In this document: positions 22,550 to 59,987 of the stretch, piece by piece
Layout: every line of letters starts with the position of its first letter
How positions within the stretch are numbered: position 1 is the first letter of the stretch
Assembly (NCBI GenBank): GCA_013398955.1
Contig: VWPU01002148.1
Coordinates: 116,965 to 180,964 of the forward strand
From: Callaeas wilsoni
Lineage: Eukaryota > Chordata > Aves > Passeriformes > Callaeidae
Length of the DNA: 64,000 nucleotides
Reading direction: 5' to 3'
Translations under genes and position numbers: made by a program
Notes under the pieces: generated by a model
The model's database searches: none
The model's input: only the letters and a program-made list of their open reading frames with translations
What the model was told of the DNA's origin: nothing

Positions 22550-23040
22550 CTGGTGTTGGCAGAACAAGTATTGAGGAGCAGTGGGAGAAGCCCGCCCGGT
22601 CTGGTTCAGGATCTCTTTCTCTCTTGGCACTGGGTGTTTGCTCTTGAGGGGGTTACGCCCCACTGCTGTCGATAGGCTAAACCCCAGTGCATATTTTGCC
22701 TTCAGCAGCAGAGAGGACCTGTCTAACAGAAACATTTAGGAAAACTGCTGATTTCAATACTTAAACAGCAAATTAAGCCATAAGATTGAATGCAATCCTC
22801 CAAACAATGGATTTGGCAGCACAGGCCCTGCATCCCCCTTGCAGTAGTTTCCGTGGCTCCACTGGTGTGTTGCTCCTCAGAGATCTCCCACACCTGCTCC
22901 CTCCTGCCCTCCTGGCACAGCTGTGCTGGCACGTCCATCCTTCCCCGCCACTCTTCTTGACAGTGCCCTGGCACCATGACGGCCAGAAACCCAACAGGGA
23001 GGCCGCCATGACAGGGCCCTTCCTACGCTCTACCTTGTCA
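22550..23040. other. GC-rich shoulder upstream of the CpG island
   Basis: Composition becomes GC-rich from about 22,800. The frame open from 22,786 to 23,457 on the + strand (223 codons) starts at TTG, not ATG, and its inferred product is Pro/Leu/Ser-rich with no recognisable domain. Frames are open on both strands at once, as expected of GC-rich non-coding DNA. A motif gccgccatgac at 23,001-23,011 partly resembles a YY1 site. I treat this as the flank of the CpG island and not as a coding region. Confidence 0.4.
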
Positions 23041-23260
23041 CCTCTCTGCCAGCACGTCCACACCAATCTCCCAACGCCGGAACCGCGGCTCGGCTGTGCA
23101 AGCGTCAGCAGAGGCCGGGACCTCTGCCCAGAGAGGAGCCGGGAGCAGAGTCCCCTCACGCGGGCTGTGGCGGGAAACGCTCAGGAGGCGATCGCTGCAG
23201 CAGACCCTGGCGTTTCCGGCCACTTCCAGCTTTCGCGATTGCTTCGGTTCGCCGGGTTAT
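23041..23260. promoter_or_regulatory. Small CpG island, candidate promoter or enhancer
   Basis: About 22 CpG dinucleotides fall within roughly 220-240 bp, by far the densest unique-sequence cluster in an otherwise CpG-poor window. It holds E2F-like ggcgggaaa (23,169-23,177), ETS-like ccggaa (23,077-23,082) and tttccgg (23,213-23,219), and gcgatcgc near 23,187. No TATA box is evident, which is usual for CpG-island promoters. No exon with a clear donor follows on either strand, so the transcript it might drive, if any, is unknown. It could be the first-exon region of a non-coding RNA, an alternative promoter of a gene outside the window, or an orphan CpG island. Confidence 0.45.
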
Positions 23261-26200
23261 GGGTTAAGCACAAAAGAGGTGCCCCATTTGAAGCAGCCAG
23301 TGAGTTTTCCTGCCTGCCTAATACCCACCGTTCTCTATCCACACAGTCTCCTCCACCACCCTCTCCCAGTCTGAAAATCGGCATGACTACTCTGCAAATA
23401 AACTCACTTTCTTACAGGCTAGAATGTCGCCAACTGAACAGCGATTTCCATTTCTAAACAGCATCTTAATGGCCTTGTGGAAAGCACCTTTCACTTAAGG
23501 CTGTTTGTGATCCAGCTGTCACAGGATGCCATTTGTTTTCCAGCATTCCTTATGCTTCTAAGATGCCTACTTTATCAAGGCAGCACCCACTCCCCTTGAA
23601 GCATTTTAGTTCATCTCTTCTTATGATATTCATGGGCAATAAGGTACAATTTATCCTTCTGCAAATACCGATTTTATTATTTTTAAACTTCTAACACAAT
23701 TCCTTGCTGATTTCCCACACTTTGACCATGATCTTTTCCTGCATCTATTTTAGATCCATTGTGTATCCTGCTTTTTATAGGAAGCAGAGCTACTAACAGC
23801 CTTAACGTATCTCTCTTTCCAATGTTCACGCTCTTTGACTCTAATTGGCTTTCTACCAGCCAGCAGCCATGCCACAAGAACAGACTTTTTACCGTGAAGT
23901 ATCTCAATTGGCTTTAGGTAGTTCACCCAGACAATATAAATACCTCTTTGAACAATTTAGCAGCTACCATGTAAATATCTTAATTAGTGAATCAATGGAC
24001 ATTTTTCCTTCACTTTAAGGGCTGCATTGGAAGGCGAATCTCTTTGGCAATGTGTTTTAAAAACACTGGTTACTGAGTCACAATGTTGTCTTCCTAAGCA
24101 ATATGCAGTGATGCAAATGACACAATTGCTTGGCCACACCCATGATGAAAAAAAAACATGAAGCAATTGAATATTGTAATTTTCCTCTCCTCTTTTCCTA
24201 GATTGGTGCACGTCACCTCTAGAAAAGGCCAGATCCCATCCCGTGCAACACTGGCCTCAAGAAAACCACACCAATTCAGACTTTGACTTCAGTTTCCAAC
24301 TGGTAAAAACCAGAAATTGCATTAGCACTTTTCAGAGCCTTGCTGAAGCTTACCAGCATTCAGTCTTAGTCAGGAATTTATCCAACAGAAAAACTCCCAG
24401 CATCTAACAGAACAGACATTTCACAGATGTTAGTCAATTGATTAACTACGCAGTTGCAACGTAATAACCCCATACATGTGATTGGGGAATTGTAACTTGC
24501 AGCTCTTCAGCTGTTTGACACCGTTTATTGATTAGAAAAACAGATTGCCATTCTCAGAATTGTAACATAATATTTTAATTACTACCATATATAACATCTG
24601 ACTTTCAGCCCATTAGGATAAAATTATCCACATAGTGACTAAGTCCTCCTCTCACCCACAGTTCCCAAAAGCTGATTTATCAGTGATGCCTAGTCAAGCA
24701 TGATTCTGCAGCCTTTTCCCCCTACAAAACAAGTTCCATCTCTTTTTATCTCATTTTGCTAAGGGAAGACTCAATCAGAGATGTTTATAGGAAGGAAATT
24801 TGTTGAATGCTTTTTATTTCATAGTCCTTATAGAAAAGTTGAAGAAAATGGAATAAAATACCTATAACACAAATACTTTAGAGGCAGTAACCCCTACATC
24901 ACTAGACTACCCTTTTTTTCTGTTATTTGCAAGAATCTGGCATTGATGTTTGTCCCACAGTATCTGATCCCCTTTGCTACAGAAGGTAGAAATGATTAAT
25001 CTTCCAGTAGATTTCAAAAGTTACTAGCAATTCCATGCACAAAAGACTCTGCAAGATACAGGGTTTGGAGTTTACTTTTTCGACATTTTATTGACTTTTT
25101 TTCCTCCTCCTCCCCCTGGGTTGTTTAATGATCTGTGTGGGGAGTACTGATAAGCGAAATTTTAACGCTGAGAACAATGGACCTAATACCTCTCTCTAAG
25201 GAAGCCCTCCATGTCTTAAAGTGACACTTGTGCAGAATCCAATAACCCAGAACAATCCCAACAATAGTATTAGTCATTAGTTTGTGTTATAAAGGCAACA
25301 TAAACACCTTTATACAATACCCATATCTTTCCACAGGAAATACACATGCGAAGGGAATAGGTATTATTTCGACATTAAACTCATATCTTGCACTTAAGTT
25401 TCTTTTCTAAGACTAATCCTTCTGTTTAAGTAAAGTGATCATGTCCAGATATATAAGACAGCTTTTTATTTGCACTGGGAAGGCACAGAGTAAGTTGAGC
25501 TATCATAAACTAAGGTTTTCTAGCAACAAATACCTAAAGAACTTAATTAATTCCTGTCATTCAGAAGGAGCAAAAGGGAAAAGAGCAAGAAGGTGTCAGT
25601 GTGAGACACTGGTTTCTAGGAATATAACTACTTTCAGCATGTGTGTAACACCCTGTGAAAAATAAAAGTGTGTACTCTAACTGCAATTCACATCACAGAG
25701 GACTTTTAAAATAACCAGGTCTTAAGAAAGAACATTGTCCATTGCTGTATTGTACCAGTAGTCGAACAGAAACCTACCTAAAATTTAATCTCTAAAACAT
25801 AGGGTAAACTATCACCATTCAATTCCTCCAAAGAGATGCTGGCATATGGACAACCTATGTGAGAGGTTTCAAGGCAGCACAGGTGTACAAGTGTTACAAT
25901 TCCATATGCTGTGTACGAATAAGACATTTGAACTGTAAAGCGGATTTAACACGAGAATCTGAACAGAATCTCAATCATTTTACATGTGCTAATTCCAAAA
26001 GTCATTCTCATTTCAGTGTATTATGGAAGTGTATTCTCCTGTTGGAAAAATATTGTTTACACTGATACTGTTCTGAAAATAATCTCATGTGGCACATTTC
26101 TCTGAATGTGCTCTGTCACCCATCTACCCATTTGTCCTTTAGATAATCCGTGCAACACATCGATTGCCCCAGGCTCTGGTGCACGTTCTTTGCTTGTTAA

Positions 26201-37000: not shown

Positions 37001-39543
37001 AAGACCAAAGGACCCAGAATTTTGCATTTCTATCTTACTAAAACACATAAGGCGAAGTACATCTAGATATTTTAACTCAGGGCTGGCTTAGCCTAGCAAA
37101 CATTCCCACAGTACACTGAATAAGTTTATCTCCATTATATAAGTAAGGTTTATGATCAACTTTGACCCCAGTGACATTGGCCCATTCATTCATTTTTAGG
37201 ATATCTTAGTAATGAGAACACTTACCCAAAAAAGAAAAAAGCTCTTGCTCTGAATATATTCAGAAGCAACTTTATAAGACTCATCACTACAAGAATGGAT
37301 TTCCTCCTACAGCTCATGAAATGTCCCCCATTCCTTTTCCATTTACTCTATTTGAATCCTGGGAGTCCCTTTTGAATCCTCAGAGAACAGATCAACTTCA
37401 GCGGGAGAGATTGATAATACCTCCACACAAAACAGCCTCCAGTCACACACAGCACGGCTTCAGTGAGGATGGGGGCAGAGCCCTTGCCAGACAGAGGCAA
37501 GGAGGACAACACCAGCAACCTGCATATTGTGCACATCACTAGTCAATCCTGTTTCACAAAAGAATACTGTTAAATAACTTAGTATTTTGCTACCGTGGTG
37601 TGGGGGTTTTGTTAGGGTTTCTTGGGTGGTTGGTTGGTTGTTTCGTTGGGGTTTTTAAAATTTGATTGTTTTCTCATTACTATTGTTTAAATCACTGCAA
37701 GATTCTCAGTTAAAAAAAAATTCTACATTTTGGGCATCTTCTGGGATTGAAACAAGTTTTAGTGTGTAGGTGTGCAGCTCATTTGGCTTACTAACTCCCT
37801 TCATTGAGTAGCTCAGTAGGCAACCATCTCCATCTGTTGAATTTTGTATCTTGCTGAGAAACCAAGGTCTCTTCTGGAATTTTGCATGGAAAGTTTGGAC
37901 TCTCAGTTTTCCTAGTAGGAAAAGCAGGACTAAAACAATGTGTTGTTTAATTTGTGTATCTTATTTGTTCTCAGTAACTTGTTTATCTCCTCTCATAAGG
38001 ACACTGGGACTGTGACCTGTGTGCCCACATCCAAGATAGGGACAGCTTTCAAAACTGGATATTCAAGCTTGTGTACTGATTTTCAGGCATTTCCTCAGAG
38101 CACTATTGCTGTGCTCCTTCCCTGGTAGGTGCTTAAACATTTTGTCCCAGGTAAGTGTGTCCATCTCATCATATCCCAAGCAAGAGTCTCTTAGCAGACT
38201 GAGAATCAGTTCACCATACCCAGCTGCCACAGTCTTACTTCAGCTCCTCACTTGAGCAAAGAAATGGTGTTAAAACAGCTGCCTGCACCTGGAAGCAGTT
38301 TCAGTGTCTGGTTGCAAATCTGCAGTACTGCAGAAAGTAGAGCCCAAACACAGGCTTGTGAAGGAGGCAAACACCCCTGATCCCAGCTCTGTACACTTCA
38401 GGAATGAAAAGCACCTTTATCTCTAATTGTTTTCAAAGGAAGGTCACTTTCCATGCATTGTCTACAATAGATTGTTCTGCCTTTTCTTTTTTATGGCTCA
38501 CAACATTTAGCTAACTAATAATAGAGCATTTTCCATAGGGTGTCATTCATATCCTATTACTACCAATTGTGACCAACTGTCACCATGTAGCCCTGTTTAC
38601 TTAAGCCATTGCCTAGAAACTACTGTGCTTTTCCATTTGAAGCTCAACTTTATTGCAACACAGACAAACAATGAGATGTAACCATGTGGGCAAATAAGCA
38701 GCAGCCTGCCTTCAGTAGTTTACACCTATTGTTTCACTTCCCATAAGTGGTGATTTTTGTTAGGGAAATAATTTTGGCCCAAGACATCCTGTAGGGTGAC
38801 TAAAAATCAATCTATTTTTTTCAGGACTCTCTTGGAAAACAATATATAACTTCTTTTGTCTTTTCTCTTGGAACCCATAGTCCTGAACTGTTTTGTTATT
38901 ACAGGCTTGAGGTTCTGTTGTTCAAGTTTAAATGTAGAGACACTTGAGCCAAGAATGTGTTTAATATTAGGTAGCTCTGTTCTGTGAGAAGAGATACAGA
39001 GTCAGTTTTTATCCTTCATTGCTCCTTTACTCTGGAAGGAGTCTAAGTGCCTCAAAATACAGATTACATTTTAGCCTTTTTCTAATAATTATCTACATAC
39101 ATCAAGTCATAAATTAAAGCCTAAGGCACTACTAAATAGTTGCATTGTAACTGCTAACTTCACCTCATGGTTATCAAAACCAAACAGCCAGCACAGACTG
39201 ATGGGAAATGTTAAAGTGAGCAACAACTCCTGATAGGAGAACAGTCCCTTCATTCACATCAGTGATTTGGAGGAAGCTGGGAGAATATAAATTAAGCAAA
39301 ATATTGATTTTTAACTTCCATTATTTCTTAGTCTTGGTAGCAACTCAATGCACCCTACACACGGATTTTCTTAGGCACTGAACAGGCACAAACAGTTGCC
39401 CTTTTTGTGTTCCTCACCTCAGCACATCAGACACTGAAAGCAGTAGAGAATCAATAACAACTGCTTATAGCTTTGCTGATGAACACAGACAATCCACACA
39501 CATGTGCCTGGGCTGGAGGTTTCCTGATCCAAGTGTCAGGCTG
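28073..39543. other. Gene-free AT-rich stretch
   Basis: No exon, RNA gene or recognisable mobile element in about 11.5 kb. Minor features: a 14-bp CA run at 29,185-29,198, a T run near 31,650, and GGTT repeats at 37,627-37,640. Two consecutive + strand frames (30,951-31,280 and 31,286-31,606) are over 100 codons, but the first begins with GTG and they lie in different phases. Their products match nothing I know. Confidence 0.6.
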
Positions 39544-40241
39544 AGACCCTTGCCTGCGCGGAGATCCGTAACTCCCCCAACCCTCGCCTGGGTGGAGATC
39601 CGTAACTCCCCAACCCCTCGCCGCGGGGAGATCCGTAACTCCCCAACCCCTCGCCGCGGGGAGATCCGTAACTCCCCAACCCCTCGCCGCGGGGAGATCC
39701 GTAACTCCCCAACCCCTCGCCGCGGGGAGATCCGTAACTCCCCAACCCCTCGCCGCGGGGAGATCCGTAACTCCCCAACCCCTCGCCGCGGGGAGATCCG
39801 TAACTCCCCAACCCCTCGCCGCGGGGAGATCCGTAACTCCCCAACCCCTCGCCGCGGGGAGATCCGTAACTCCCCAACCCCTCGCCGCGGGGAGATCCGT
39901 AACTCCCCAACCCCTCGCCGCGGGGAGATCCGTAACTCCCCAACCCCTCGCCGCGGGGAGATCCGTAACTCCCCAACCCCTCGCCGCGGGGAGATCCGTA
40001 ACTCCCCAACCCCTCGCCGCGGGGAGATCCGTAACTCCCCAACCCCTCGCCGCGGGGAGATCCGTAACTCCCCAACCCCTCGCCGCGGGGAGATCCGTAA
40101 CTCCCCAACCCCTCGCCGCGGGGAGATCCGTAACTCCCCAACCCCTCGCCGCGGGGAGATCCGTAACTCCCCAACCCCTCGCCGCGGGGAGATCCGTAAC
40201 TCCCCAACCCCTCGCCGCGGGGAGATCCGTAACTCCCCAAC
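39544..40241. repeat. 33-bp GC-rich minisatellite, about 21 copies
   Basis: The motif gagatccgtaact starts at 39,561, then at 39,595 and every 33 bp to 40,222, giving 21 starts. The rest of each unit is ccccaacccctcgccgcggg. The first complete period is 34 bp and diverged (it contains cccccaaccctcgcctggg), and about 15 bp before it look like a worn partial unit. From 39,628 onward the units read as identical until the array breaks off in the last copy at about 40,241. Each unit is 70% GC (23 of 33), has four CpGs and 15 C against 8 G on the + strand. GGGGAG and CTCCCC in each unit can pair across an 8-base loop. The period is a multiple of three and five of six frames lack a stop, so long open frames on both strands are a by-product; one with a true ATG runs 39,502-40,248 on the + strand. 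It is not a CRISPR array, because there are no spacers. Unit identity suggests recent expansion or homogenisation. Confidence 0.97.
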
Positions 40242-43200
40242 GCTTTGAAATGCAATCTTCCTACCAGAGACTAACGACAGAGAGGTTGCAATGACTATGC
40301 CCCAGGCTTGGTTTTCTAAGACTAGTCTAGGTAGTCTTCGTTTTATTACATATAGATATAGACAGATAAAACTAGGCAAAATACTTTTCTCCTAAACCTG
40401 ATTAAATAGATTTTATTAAGTTTCCTTCATCTTTCTGGGTTACAAATCTCAGTCTGGATTTTTATGCAATTTCAGGCTGCTAGGAAAGACGATTTGGCAG
40501 ATTCAGTGGAGATGAACTTTCCTTGCATCTCCATTAGACCTCTCCAGTCACTCAGTACTTTTTCCATTTGCTTCAGTTATGTAACCACTCTTGAAATAAC
40601 ATATGGATTTACTTCAGAAATCCAGTTTGCTCGCACTGACTGTGTTTGCAAGTGAGTGCAATCTTTGACCTTGAAATATCTCAGCAATAATCCTAGCTAA
40701 TTCTCTTAGAGGTGAAAATAAATATTCAACCAAGATATGGTCACTTTAACAACCCACATGCCTAAGCCGGTGTCTTGTCTTAGGATTACGTTGCCTGACA
40801 AACCTGTTTAGGGTGTACATGAAATACTTGCTCCTATAATGAGTCCATATATGTTATTACACTCTATACAAGTGCCTTAAACTATGTGAGAGTGAGTTTC
40901 AGTGTGCAAATTAGATTGTCTTGTTCTCAGTGCAAATTTATGCTGTTAAACCAACACATCCAGTCAATATTTAATTTAGAGCAGACAATACAGAGCAGAC
41001 TGATTATTTGCCCAATGGTTGTAGGCAAATTATGTTCGAAATAGCACAGCATGAAGACAGTGGGAAAAAAAAATACAAATATCATCTCTTTAAAAACAGA
41101 CAGTTTCATTTCTTGCTTGTCTGACTGAACAACTAAACGAAAAAATTTTAAAATCAATGCATGCAAAGAAAAATGGCCAAACAGTGAACAAGCACCATTT
41201 CCATTACTTGTTAAAAATGTCTGCAGCCATGCTAAGCTTACATTACATACAACTTCAAGCATGTGGCTCTCAAAGTAAACACTACCTGTGAAAATATTAT
41301 CTGAATTACTTTAGTTAAGGTGTGCAAAATCTATAGAATATTTTTTGAGCTCGTTTGGGTGTTTTGTTTTCAAAAATAAGCTCCAGTTCTGTACGCACCT
41401 TCAAAAAATTGAGAAATTCACATTGAATATTCCCAGTATTCCATATGGATTAGTAAGCAAGGCTGAGAATAAGACCAAGAGTAACATGAATGAGACACTT
41501 TGCGGGAAAGTGCAACAAATACATTAGCAAATATTTTAGTGATTATTTCACTAATGGTCAGGAAATTGTGGTAAAATGGCTTTTGAAATAGTCTACTGAT
41601 ATTCCTTGAAAACACAGTCCTGACAAAAGAAGTTTTGTTTCTCAAAGGTTTGTCCATGAACATTTCTTTCTTACCCTCATTTATCCCCCTCATTGTCTAC
41701 CCATCACTTTTTCCCCAGAAGAGCCCCCTTGATACCTATTCATGTGCTTTCTTTCCCAGACACACATTCTCTCTCCCTCCATTTGTTCTGAGATACAAAG
41801 AATAGGCTGCATATTGCCCAAACTTATCAGTTATAGCTAATAAATTTTGACTGGTATGAAAGGCTTCAAGTTCCATAAAATGGCAGAGTATGCAGACTAA
41901 TTAAAGGTTAAAATGTTTAAAATTGGGCCAAAGACATACAGAATAATAAAAATCCAGATATTTCAACTTCTAAGACATCTTCACTCTCCCATTGTCTTCC
42001 GTTACACATTTTGCAACCAAAATTTGTCAGGTTTAACATGCTCCCTCCACCCCCAGCACAAGACAACTTTACTTAAGAATCCAATTTGTCTGCCATTCAT
42101 CAATGCCCTCCACGTGAACCTCATGGCATCACAGAGACATTTCTATCCCCTGCATTCATAGTGCCAGAGTCTCTTGAGCCAACAAACTGTCAAATTAGTG
42201 CCAGCTCATGACAGCTTTATGATATGTAATCTTGTTCACCAGCAAATGGTCTGAGACCCCCTGCTTGCTACTGCTGTCATACAAGAAATGCTTTTTTGTG
42301 TGTCTCTGATATATTTATATTTTGAAAGCAGATCCCAGCTGGGAAAGTAGTGGTTTTGCCTCGCAAAAATCTTTCATAAGCACACTTAACTGCTCTCTCC
42401 ATGTGTTGCTTAAAAAGCAGCTTTTAGGATTTTGCTTGAAAGGTTATCTTAGGGAAAAGGAAATTAATTAAAAATTAATTAAAGATGTACTTTGTCCTGC
42501 TGATTCAATATACTTACTCACCTAGCAAGTAAAAATTTCTTACTCCTTCAACATTCAATCACAACTGACACAGTGAAAAATATATTTTGCCAGGGCTATC
42601 TAGGATGTAAAGTCCACGTATCAAAAACTGAGGTGCAGATAAATCAAGTTTATTCAAACATATTCGCAAAGAGGAAAATTCACAGGGAAACATGTCTTAG
42701 GGTTTCAAGACAATAAACAGTGGACAACAGAACAATGTGGAGAAGTTAGGAAAGTAGAATACACCCCTCTTACACAGAGTTCTTTGAGACAGGAAATTAG
42801 TCTTTCCTTTACATAACTTTATAATAACCTTGTTCTAGTCATTACAATATAAAACAACAGCAGTACACTAGCTGATTTTTTTAATGTGTCCAAAAAAAAT
42901 GAGCTTTTACATCCCTCTTTGTATAAGTGACAGTAGCTGCCTGCATTTATTTCTTAATTGGTGGCAGAACTAACCACAAGAAGTAGCCAAAGGGAAAAAT
43001 TAGTGTGTGAGAAATGCTTAAAAGCAAGAATGCTATTTTCAATTTGCTTCATTTATAATTCAAAAGATATAACTGGGAACTGCAAAGTTCCCATACAAAG
43101 CACCCTAGTGAAGTCAGTGGAAACATGAAGATTTACAGGAACAAGCCCTATAAACAAGGTAAAAATAAAAACAAAACAAAAAACCCAAGGGGACACAAAC

Positions 43201-55700: not shown

Positions 55701-57214
55701 ACTTTGTTTGGGAAAAAAAAATGTTATGGAATAAATAGAAGAGTGTTGATAGTTCCAAATTTTACAGAATATCAATTAAATTCCTTTTCAGTACAAAACT
55801 CGGTGTAAAAAGAGAAAAATATGAGAAATTGTAAATAAATTACAGCAAACTTTCCACTGATGGCAACTGGAGGATAAAACACTCAGTTATCTGCCACAGC
55901 GAAGGTTAAGAGGACAAAAGAATGAATTGGGTGGACATGAAAAATTGAAGGAAAGACAAATTCGGAACTGATGTCAGGCCACACATTTTAATTGCGGAAC
56001 TGAATGCCAGACATTAACACAGAGCCGGGGTCATCCAGAGAACGATCAAAGGGCACTTGGGGGACATTGGGCACTGGGGTGCAGCAACTTTCTACAGAAA
56101 ATCTTCCTGGTCTTTACTTACTTGTACTGTAGCTGTGTTATATGAAGTAGCTAACATCAACTGGGGTGCTCCTTCAAGACAAAGAAAAAAACCACAGAAA
56201 GAAAGAAAAAACTCATACCACTGAGGCTGTCAATCATAAGCAAAAGAAAACTACAGCCATTCAAAATAAACTGCCCCTTCGGAGCTGAGGTCACCCTGTC
56301 AATATCAATCTTCTCATTTTGATGCACATTAAGAGCTATTGGAGTGTCCGCTTTCATCCTATGACTGTGAATTGACCTTACTGACACTACTGAACACAAT
56401 ATGGTCATTTAGGGATGTGGTAATTATTGGTAACTGCACTAACAAAGTTAGTAGCACACAGGGCATCATTGCTCTGGCTTATATTGCCACCTGGCCTTTA
56501 TTTTAAGAGATTTATTCTCATTTCAGATGCCTTGAAAGCTACATACACATCAGTCCCTTATTTATAGTTATTTCCCGTGGGATTCCCATGACAGCTTCTA
56601 CTAAAAAAGAGTATTTTCACCTGAAAAAAAAAGCCAAAACAAAACTGTTGCTTAAAAAGTCTGAATTAAGCCTATCAAAAGTCATACTACACAAACACAA
56701 ATCCTCTTACAATCTTATCATAGTACCTTTCTGTATTCCCTATCTTTTGTCAAAACACAACGCAGCTGGGTCAGGAGTGAGGCCTCCTGCCCGGTGTTGC
56801 AGCCTGTCACTACAGAGGTGACACAGCCCCAACACCTCTGATACACACCAGCCCACCTGAAGCAAACCCCGCCAAGCTGCCCCTCCCTCTCTCCAGGATT
56901 GTACTCCGCTTCCACAATGAATCAGAAGGTAAAACTGTCTCCAAGACTCGAGATGGGGAGGGCAGGTGCCTAAAATCTGTATACATACTCCTTTTTGCAC
57001 GGCTCCTGAGCAGCTGCAGCCTGGTGAGCCCGAGAGGTGGCCGTGCTGGGGAGCAGCGGCCAGCCCAGGCACACACAGCAGCTGCCAGAGATAAGCCACA
57101 GTGCTTCCTCGGGCAGCAGCTTCCTTCGGTCTGAAATTGCCTTTACTGATTTACTGACTAAGATATATAATGTGATCACCGTAGGGATGACTTTCCGTTA
57201 AAAGGAAAGAGAAA
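49784..57214. other. Gene-free stretch, mixed composition
   Basis: No exon, RNA gene or clear mobile element recognised. GC content rises locally at 52,180-52,400 and 52,560-52,930, and at 56,760-57,130, where scattered CpGs occur without forming a convincing island. Open frames up to 156 codons there have no known domain. Confidence 0.55.
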
Positions 57215-58482: not shown

Positions 58483-59987
58483 GCCTCTTCTGCACTATTG
58501 CAAGGCTTTCTGAGCAGCCCTCTTGGAGGGAGGGCCCTTCTGTTTCCAAGGTCACCCACACTTCCAAGAAACAGCCTTGCAGAAGGGCTGCTTGGCTCCA
58601 TCGGACCTTTATTTGCATCTCAGCACTGGAAGAGCAGTTCAGCCTGCTGACTGACCAGTGATCCTATCACTGCACTCCTCCTCATGACCAGGACTACTTT
58701 CTCATGCCCAATGTGCTCATTGAAGGCAGCTGTACTCCTCCTTGACATGACCCACACTGGGCACCCCTACTCCAAAAGGATGTGCACGCTTCTGCCCAAA
58801 TCAGCTTCTCCTTGCTGCCAGAACTTTATGGACCAGCTCATTTGCTCCCGTGCTGAGCCAGTTTGATAACAGCTCGTGCCCCTTTCCTGGTCACAGCTGG
58901 GGCCAGACCATGAAGCAAAGCAGGTCCCTCAGAAAGCCCTGCTGTTTCTGGGTAGGGGGCATCTTGTGCTGTATCATCTGACCAGGAAGCAGAACTTCTT
59001 AAATGTAAGCAAATTCCCTATTCCAGAAATTACCCGGAGAAGGATCTGTTGCTATATTTAGCAACAGATAATTTTGTAAATCTGAACAATAATGAAATAA
59101 TGAACTGTGGAGCAGGAGAGGTCACATGCCTAATCCTCACTGATGAGCAGAGAGAAGTCATACCAGGGTCCAGACCATATTCCCCACTGAAACCTCACTT
59201 CTGGCAGGAGTAAGTCACCACTATTGTTGCACACAGGCAGCTCTGTATTGCTATTTATCTTCTTTACAACTAACAGCAAAAAACTCCAGGGGTGAAGGCT
59301 GAAGAAAAAATTGGCAGAGACTGCAAGCCTTGGCTGGGGCCTCTCTAGGAGTGCTCACAAGGACACAGCACACAGTACCTGGTGCTCCAGCCCTTGCCAG
59401 CCCCAACAAGCAGCTGGACCCCATGCCAGAACACAACGTTCAGAAAGCAGCACAATCTAAAATACACCAGCCCAGCCAGCTCCTTGCACTACATGTAAGG
59501 AGTAACAGGACTGATAGAAAATTCATAAAAGCAACAGCATACTTGGCTTAGGAAGTCATTTCCTTACATTAGTCAGTGGCTTCTGAGGAGATTTCCAGCA
59601 GTGCCAAGGAATCAGTAGTGCAGCAGATCCTTCCTTCTTGCCTGGTTCCACCACCTTCTTCCAAGTGCAGCAGCTTTAATGACTGCGTTCAACCTTTTCA
59701 TGGACCAACTGCAGCCACCTGGCACTGAAGATTTGCTGCTGAAACACCTGCAAAGCAAGGTGTAGCAGATCAGTTACCACTCACCTTAATCAAAAAAGCC
59801 TGTGTCTCATCTGCTAGATCACAGAACCCTAGCAAATTTTCTGGGATCTAGTTAGCAGGCCAGTGGGGAGGGGAGCCAAGGGATTGCTGGGGACACACAG
59901 AGCCTGCCTGGAGGTGGGGCAGTGCTGCTGCTACAGCTGAGCTCCTGAGGCAAAACAAGTACAGGAGAGCTAGGAAGTGACTTCACA

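Follow-up and report, generated by a model that had tools for sequence, protein, structure and literature searches.

Layout of the array and its units

The window analysed here is a stretch of 64,000 nucleotides from Callaeas wilsoni, which corresponds to bases 116965-180964 of its contig and reaches the contig end. The assembly consists of 1,003,439,812 bases in 12,470 contigs. Within the window lies a GC-rich tandem array (Table 1), to which Tandem Repeats Finder assigned a period of 33, 21.0 copies, 98% matches, and a score of 1330. The other two tandem repeats listed for the window score 52 and 70, far below it. The sequence-only reading had placed the array at 39544..40241; its end agrees with the program, but its start lies three bases before the 39547 given by Tandem Repeats Finder.

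The 16-base block GGAGATCCGTAACTCC occurs 21 times in the array, with a spacing of 34 once and then of 33 nineteen times. The earlier description of about 21 units at an exact 33-bp period is therefore right for the number of units and for 19 of them, but not for the first two, which are 34 bp long. The remaining 19 units are identical letter by letter over 627 bp. Identity had been claimed from 39,628 onward, which is borne out and was slightly conservative, as the perfect units already begin at 39615. Chance is of no concern as an explanation for 19 identical 33-mers.

The two edge units were aligned pairwise with the 33-bp core, and the columns given here are those of a 34-column alignment for which equally scoring placings exist (6 and 3 optimal alignments). 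Edge unit 1 has T for C in column 5, an extra T in column 9, and C for G in column 13, and its AA near the end is displaced by one relative to the core. Edge unit 2 shares this extra T, and its two other differences from the core are at columns 11 and 13. The extra T thus stands at one common place in both edge units, and each of them also differs from the core at two nearby positions. In total, six columns vary in the edge units, and all of them fall outside the 16-base GGAGATCCGTAACTCC block, with a probability of about 0.014. When the AA shift is set aside, the other four variable columns lie within the first 15 of the 34, with a probability of 0.029. These probabilities of about 1-3% are post hoc and come from two units, and the sparing of GGAGATCCGTAACTCC may be taken as a faint hint of constraint.

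Table 1. Positions of the array, its parts, and the two open frames through it that were annotated (coordinates within the window).
Feature	Position	Strand	Basis or result
Whole minisatellite array, 21 units	39547..40241	.	Tandem Repeats Finder; GGAGATCCGTAACTCC x21
Two divergent 34-bp edge units, both with a T that is missing from the other 19	39547..39614	+	Pairwise alignments
19 letter-identical 33-bp units CCCTCGCCGCGGGGAGATCCGTAACTCCCCAAC, 4 CpGs each	39615..40241 (627 bp)	+	
Inverted repeat GGGGAG-8 nt-CTCCCC, hairpin-capable, as placed in the first of the 19 perfect units, which all have it	39625..39644	+	
Open frame (PRRGEIRNSPT)n, judged not coding	39382..40245	+	No Pfam match; no homologous protein, 7994 candidates scored
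Open frame (LGSYGSPRGEG)n, judged not coding	39539..40270	-	Pfam Mucin-like, 60.7 bits; no homologous protein, 7995 candidates scored

Coding potential of the array and the surrounding window

Five of the six reading frames run through the array without a stop codon, with stop-to-stop lengths of 240-308 aa. Together with a 33-bp period that is divisible by three, these frames could be read as a coding repeat exon, and a reverse frame matches the Pfam family PF16058 (Mucin-like) well above its cut-off of 28.7 bits. However, a period that is divisible by three and holds no in-frame stop keeps frames open by itself. Eight scrambles of the 11-residue unit were made, and seven were scanned against PF16058. 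Two of the seven also matched the family at E 0.1 or better, and five gave no match. In versions of 12 copies, the real unit scored 39.8 bits and the scrambles 46.8 and 25.2 bits. In addition, three of the five frames were compared with 5.8 billion proteins, and none of the roughly 8,000 candidates scored for each frame, chosen as those with most words in common, reached E 0.01. A coding repeat was rejected, since the open frames follow from the period and the Mucin-like match recurs with scrambled units; this explanation is extremely improbable. The PF16058 match of the array frame is compositional. As an observation on the family itself, PF16058 matches scrambled G/S/P/R-rich 11-residue tandem repeats, in one case with 46.8 bits against the cut-off of 28.7, so hits in repetitive frames need a scrambled control. 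A match to DUF5812 in an array frame was weak, fell under the curated Pfam cut-off, and was discarded.

The region around the array had been described as gene-free, and the window is likely to be so. Outside the array there are 138 frames of at least 75 aa that contain no stop, and 25 of them were scanned against Pfam. None of the 25 reached a curated cut-off, which fits the description, although introns, or exons that encode no Pfam domain, could still be present. In a coding-score scan, the array's own frames came first, and no clear exon elsewhere was apparent by eye. A GWT1 match in the frame at 40930-41310 was rejected as weak and under the curated Pfam cut-off. No Rfam family was found in the window at gathering thresholds. 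A pattern for the CR1-like 3' end matched the window once with two mismatches, which equals the chance expectation.

Uniqueness of the array in the assembly

The 20-base core GGGGAGATCCGTAACTCCCC was searched exactly through the whole assembly. It has 19 exact matches, and all 19 lie inside the array. No exact match was found on the opposite strand of the whole assembly, and the reversed control also gave none. The count is 19 and not 21 because the full 20-mer is absent from both edge units. Satellites occupy many or long arrays, and a satellite family would be expected to do so genome-wide, whereas all exact core matches here fall in one array. Judged by exact matching, the array is a single-locus minisatellite and not a dispersed satellite.

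GC-rich tandem repeats within transposable elements are known in general, and the array could accordingly be the internal tandem repeat of such an element or of a dispersed satellite family. This explanation is highly implausible, as exact matches of the 20-base core are confined to one locus in the assembly and a self comparison of the 64-kb window at E 1e-5 revealed no second copy of a dispersed repeat. No sign of a target-site duplication was seen, as the longest word common to both array edges is 6 bp.

The sequence-only reading did not recognise the unit as a named avian satellite, and this agrees with a literature check in which six unit strings, searched as letters, had no hit in 5.39 million papers; the agreement extends as far as that check. 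A 22-base unit pattern had no match in viral contigs. Bacterial relatives were also considered and rejected. An 18-base pattern had three matches in bacterial genome contigs, each a single word and none in an array, against about seven chance matches expected in 257 billion bases. The array is a new locus of a class, the minisatellites, that is already known.

A comparison sample of 147,238 bases was drawn from 15 further stretches of the assembly, including one that lies just upstream on the contig of the window. The best array with a period of 11-60 in this sample scores 110, against 1330 here. The sample shows that arrays so long and clean are not found on every stretch, and it is too small to call them rare. 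Arrays of longer units do occur elsewhere in the assembly, since a stretch of contig C2400 (L023:7904-9697) holds one array of 396-bp units (3.0 copies) and one of 348-bp units (2.8 copies), with scores of about 1700. Another stretch, from contig C200 (L015:1-7238), has a GC content of 65.9% and several weak GC-rich tandem repeats, while the other 14 stretches have 36-42% GC. The C200 stretch perhaps comes from a microchromosome.

The copy number of 21 is taken from one assembly, in which a perfect repeat of 627 bp can be mis-sized. The true array might have few copies or many more, with 21 being the assembler's number. This is suggested by a perfect repeat that exceeds short-read length and by the fragmentation of the assembly, with its 12,470 contigs and 929 unknown bases in the stretches sampled. 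In contrast, the sequence of the two divergent edge units is distinct, as is that of the clean right junction, so a tandem arrangement, with several units as a minimum, is likely real. Moreover, short-read assemblers collapse such arrays more often than they inflate them. An assembly artefact is therefore improbable as an explanation of the array.

DNA structure of the unit

The inverted repeat of each perfect unit is predicted to form a hairpin with a perfect 6-bp stem and an 8-nt loop, with a folding energy of -5.6 kcal/mol (DNA parameters). When three units were folded in tandem, shuffled units were at least as stable in 63 of 500 cases on the forward strand and in 76 of 500 on the reverse strand. 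No G-quadruplex motif (four G-runs, loops 1-7) was found in the array on either strand. The G4Hunter score of the array averages -0.70, with windows from -0.58 to -1.0, and the extremes elsewhere in the window are -1.55 and 1.64. The hairpin and G-quadruplex signals do not rise above those of shuffled units or of the rest of the window, and structure does not appear to be a distinguishing feature of the array. Structure may still aid the instability of the array. Inverted repeats were also detected around the array. Two canonical G-quadruplex motifs lie on the forward strand at 56051-56079 and 59865-59892, toward the right end of the window, which is richer in GC.

Base composition and the CpG island question

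The array has a GC content of 69.1%, against 39.8% for the window, which confirms the earlier statement of a 70% GC unit in AT-rich surroundings. In the 698 bp at 39544-40241 there are 81 CpGs, or 82 when one straddling the right edge is counted, as anticipated by the earlier estimate of about 80 in 0.7 kb. The observed/expected ratio of CpG is 1.07 in the array and 0.21 in the whole window. None of the 76 CpGs in the 19 core units is decayed.

In sequence terms, a CpG island is defined by a GC content above 50%, a CpG observed/expected ratio above 0.6, and a length of at least 200 bp. With 0.69 GC and a ratio of 1.07 over 698 bp, the array falls within this definition, and it also passes a 300-bp CpG-island scan. 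Apart from the array, one stretch alone in the window passes that scan, at 22901-23475, with GC up to 0.66, observed/expected up to 0.83, and 31 CpGs. It overlaps a 226-aa open frame at 22777-23454 on the forward strand, which has no Pfam match, and it is possibly a promoter or an exon.

The flanks of the array were searched for a halo of raised GC or CpG over 1 kb on both sides, and none was found. The left 1 kb contains one CpG (4th percentile of the window) at a GC of 0.386, and the right 1 kb contains eight (70th percentile) at a GC of 0.362, compared with window medians of seven CpGs and a GC of 0.39 per 1 kb. The CpG density ends at the array edges, which matches the expectation for an amplified CpG-rich unit.

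The cited parts of PMC5519329 and PMC12047795 describe birds as lacking PRDM9, with an enrichment of recombination close to CpG islands and with stable hotspots. In the zebra finch, crossovers are 1.36-fold and non-crossovers 1.54-fold enriched near CpG islands (excerpt of PMC12047795). The array could be a recombination hotspot or a CpG island that is unmethylated in the germline. In such a PRDM9-less host, its open CpGs would receive breaks, and GC-biased conversion would keep it GC-rich and uniform. The density of CpGs and their complete preservation in the core speak for this explanation, as does the enrichment in the zebra finch. However, the intact CpGs are equally well explained by recent expansion. 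A long-lived hotspot would be expected, given the stability of bird hotspots, to raise GC and CpG beside the array, and the flanks, above all the left one, show no such halo. Two substitutions between edge and core units are of the A/T<->G/C type, with G/C as the core state each time, and the AA shift adds one count in either direction; these are too few to show a bias. The earlier suggestion of a recombination or methylation hotspot thus finds no support, and this explanation is unlikely. In the absence of a flanking halo, the array is probably not a long-standing CpG island.

Origin and age of the array

Minisatellites are tandem arrays with units of roughly 9-100 bp (range as stated in the excerpt of PMC2599865), and the array consists of 21 units of 33 bp. 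Very probably, it is an ordinary single-locus GC-rich minisatellite (VNTR) that was recently amplified or has been kept uniform. The 19 inner units are identical and all lack the extra T, so they would most simply descend from a single founder unit. The earlier proposal of recent expansion or homogenisation is strengthened by the 19 perfect copies, which hold a state absent from both edge units.

The following course of events can be hypothesized for such a minisatellite. A pair of 34-bp units, represented by the two visible edge units, would have been present first. One copy would then have lost the T and diverged at other positions, giving the 33-bp founder with the state common to the 19 inner units. 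This founder would then have multiplied to 19 copies in recent times, or homogenisation would have kept the units alike; in either case the mechanism would be unequal exchange, replication slippage, or short-tract conversion from unit to unit. Slippage could perhaps have been aided to some degree by the hairpin-forming inverted repeat that each unit carries. The CpG density would be a by-product of the amplification of a CpG-rich unit and not a regulatory CpG island, as the bare flanks suggest. The mean non-crossover tract of the zebra finch is about 32 bp (cited part of PMC12047795), which is about the length of one unit, so conversion unit by unit would be feasible.

The germline mutation rate of the zebra finch is 5.0e-9 per bp per generation, as given in the excerpt of PMC12047795. 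If a finch-like rate and zero homogenisation are presupposed, as conversion between units resets the clock, the lack of differences across 627 bp, 76 CpGs included, sets the 95% upper limit of the age at 9.6e5 generations when CpGs mutate at the rate of other sites. With a higher CpG rate, the same bound becomes 4.9e5 (fivefold), 3.0e5 (tenfold), or 1.7e5 (twentyfold) generations. On these sequence-based estimates, the common ancestor of the units lies at most about 0.2-1 million generations back, or homogenisation is still going on.

The ordinary minisatellite is probably without a function of its own, and its copy number would differ among individuals, so that the array is probably variable in length between them. 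As such, it would be of little importance beyond being a likely polymorphic marker. A different outcome would follow if the amplification had created a newborn CpG island. According to this proposal, the amplification of the unit put about 80 CpGs into AT-rich DNA within about the last million generations or less, and in a PRDM9-less genome this may by itself have turned the locus into an unmethylated, recombination-active site. Such a site may be too young for a GC halo to have formed. The proposal is a long shot. If it were true, the locus would be a natural test of whether CpG density alone creates a hotspot. An array that is both unmethylated and recombination-active would be a clean, dated case of the birth of a CpG island by tandem amplification in a PRDM9-less genome.

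Comparison with known repeat systems

In the chicken assembly galGal4, 12,310 minisatellite arrays with units of 11-60 bp make up 1.27% of the assembly (cited part of PMC4992247), which shows that minisatellites are common in birds. The ordinary minisatellite reading places the present array in the same class, as its 33-bp unit lies within the range of 11-60, is arranged head to tail, and is apparently non-coding. It exceeds every array of period 11-60 in the 147 kb sampled from the same genome, in uniformity as well as in score. Avian satellite DNA shares tandem repetition with it. The thrush Turdus leucomelas has a 23-bp satellite and a satellitome with units from 21 to 1644 bp (excerpt of PMC11375038). 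Unlike avian satellites, the core here occupies one place of the assembly by exact matching.

MSY1 is a minisatellite of the human Y chromosome whose unit of 25 bp has a predicted hairpin (excerpt of PMC2599865). Like MSY1 as described there, the present array has a hairpin-forming inverted repeat in each unit, and its variants lie in blocks, as runs of one unit type. However, the predicted hairpin of MSY1 is AT-rich and its units are never of another length in the account of the same excerpt, whereas the hairpin here is GC-rich and no better than those of shuffled units, and the edge units are 34 bp long. The mutation rate of MSY1 is 3.8% in 1071 father-son pairs, from a study cited in that excerpt. 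It is a measured rate, whereas the present array is known from the sequence of one assembly.

The human minisatellites CEB1, CEB25, and HRAS1 are GC-rich, as is the present array, and such arrays can destabilise chromosomes in yeast tests (cited part of PMC3486850). According to the same part of that source, the behaviour of CEB1 needs a G-quadruplex, whereas the present array is without a short-loop G-quadruplex motif and its mean G4Hunter score is only -0.70. Among the systems compared, MSY1 together with CEB1, CEB25, and HRAS1 would, by analogy, be the nearest studied counterparts of this array.
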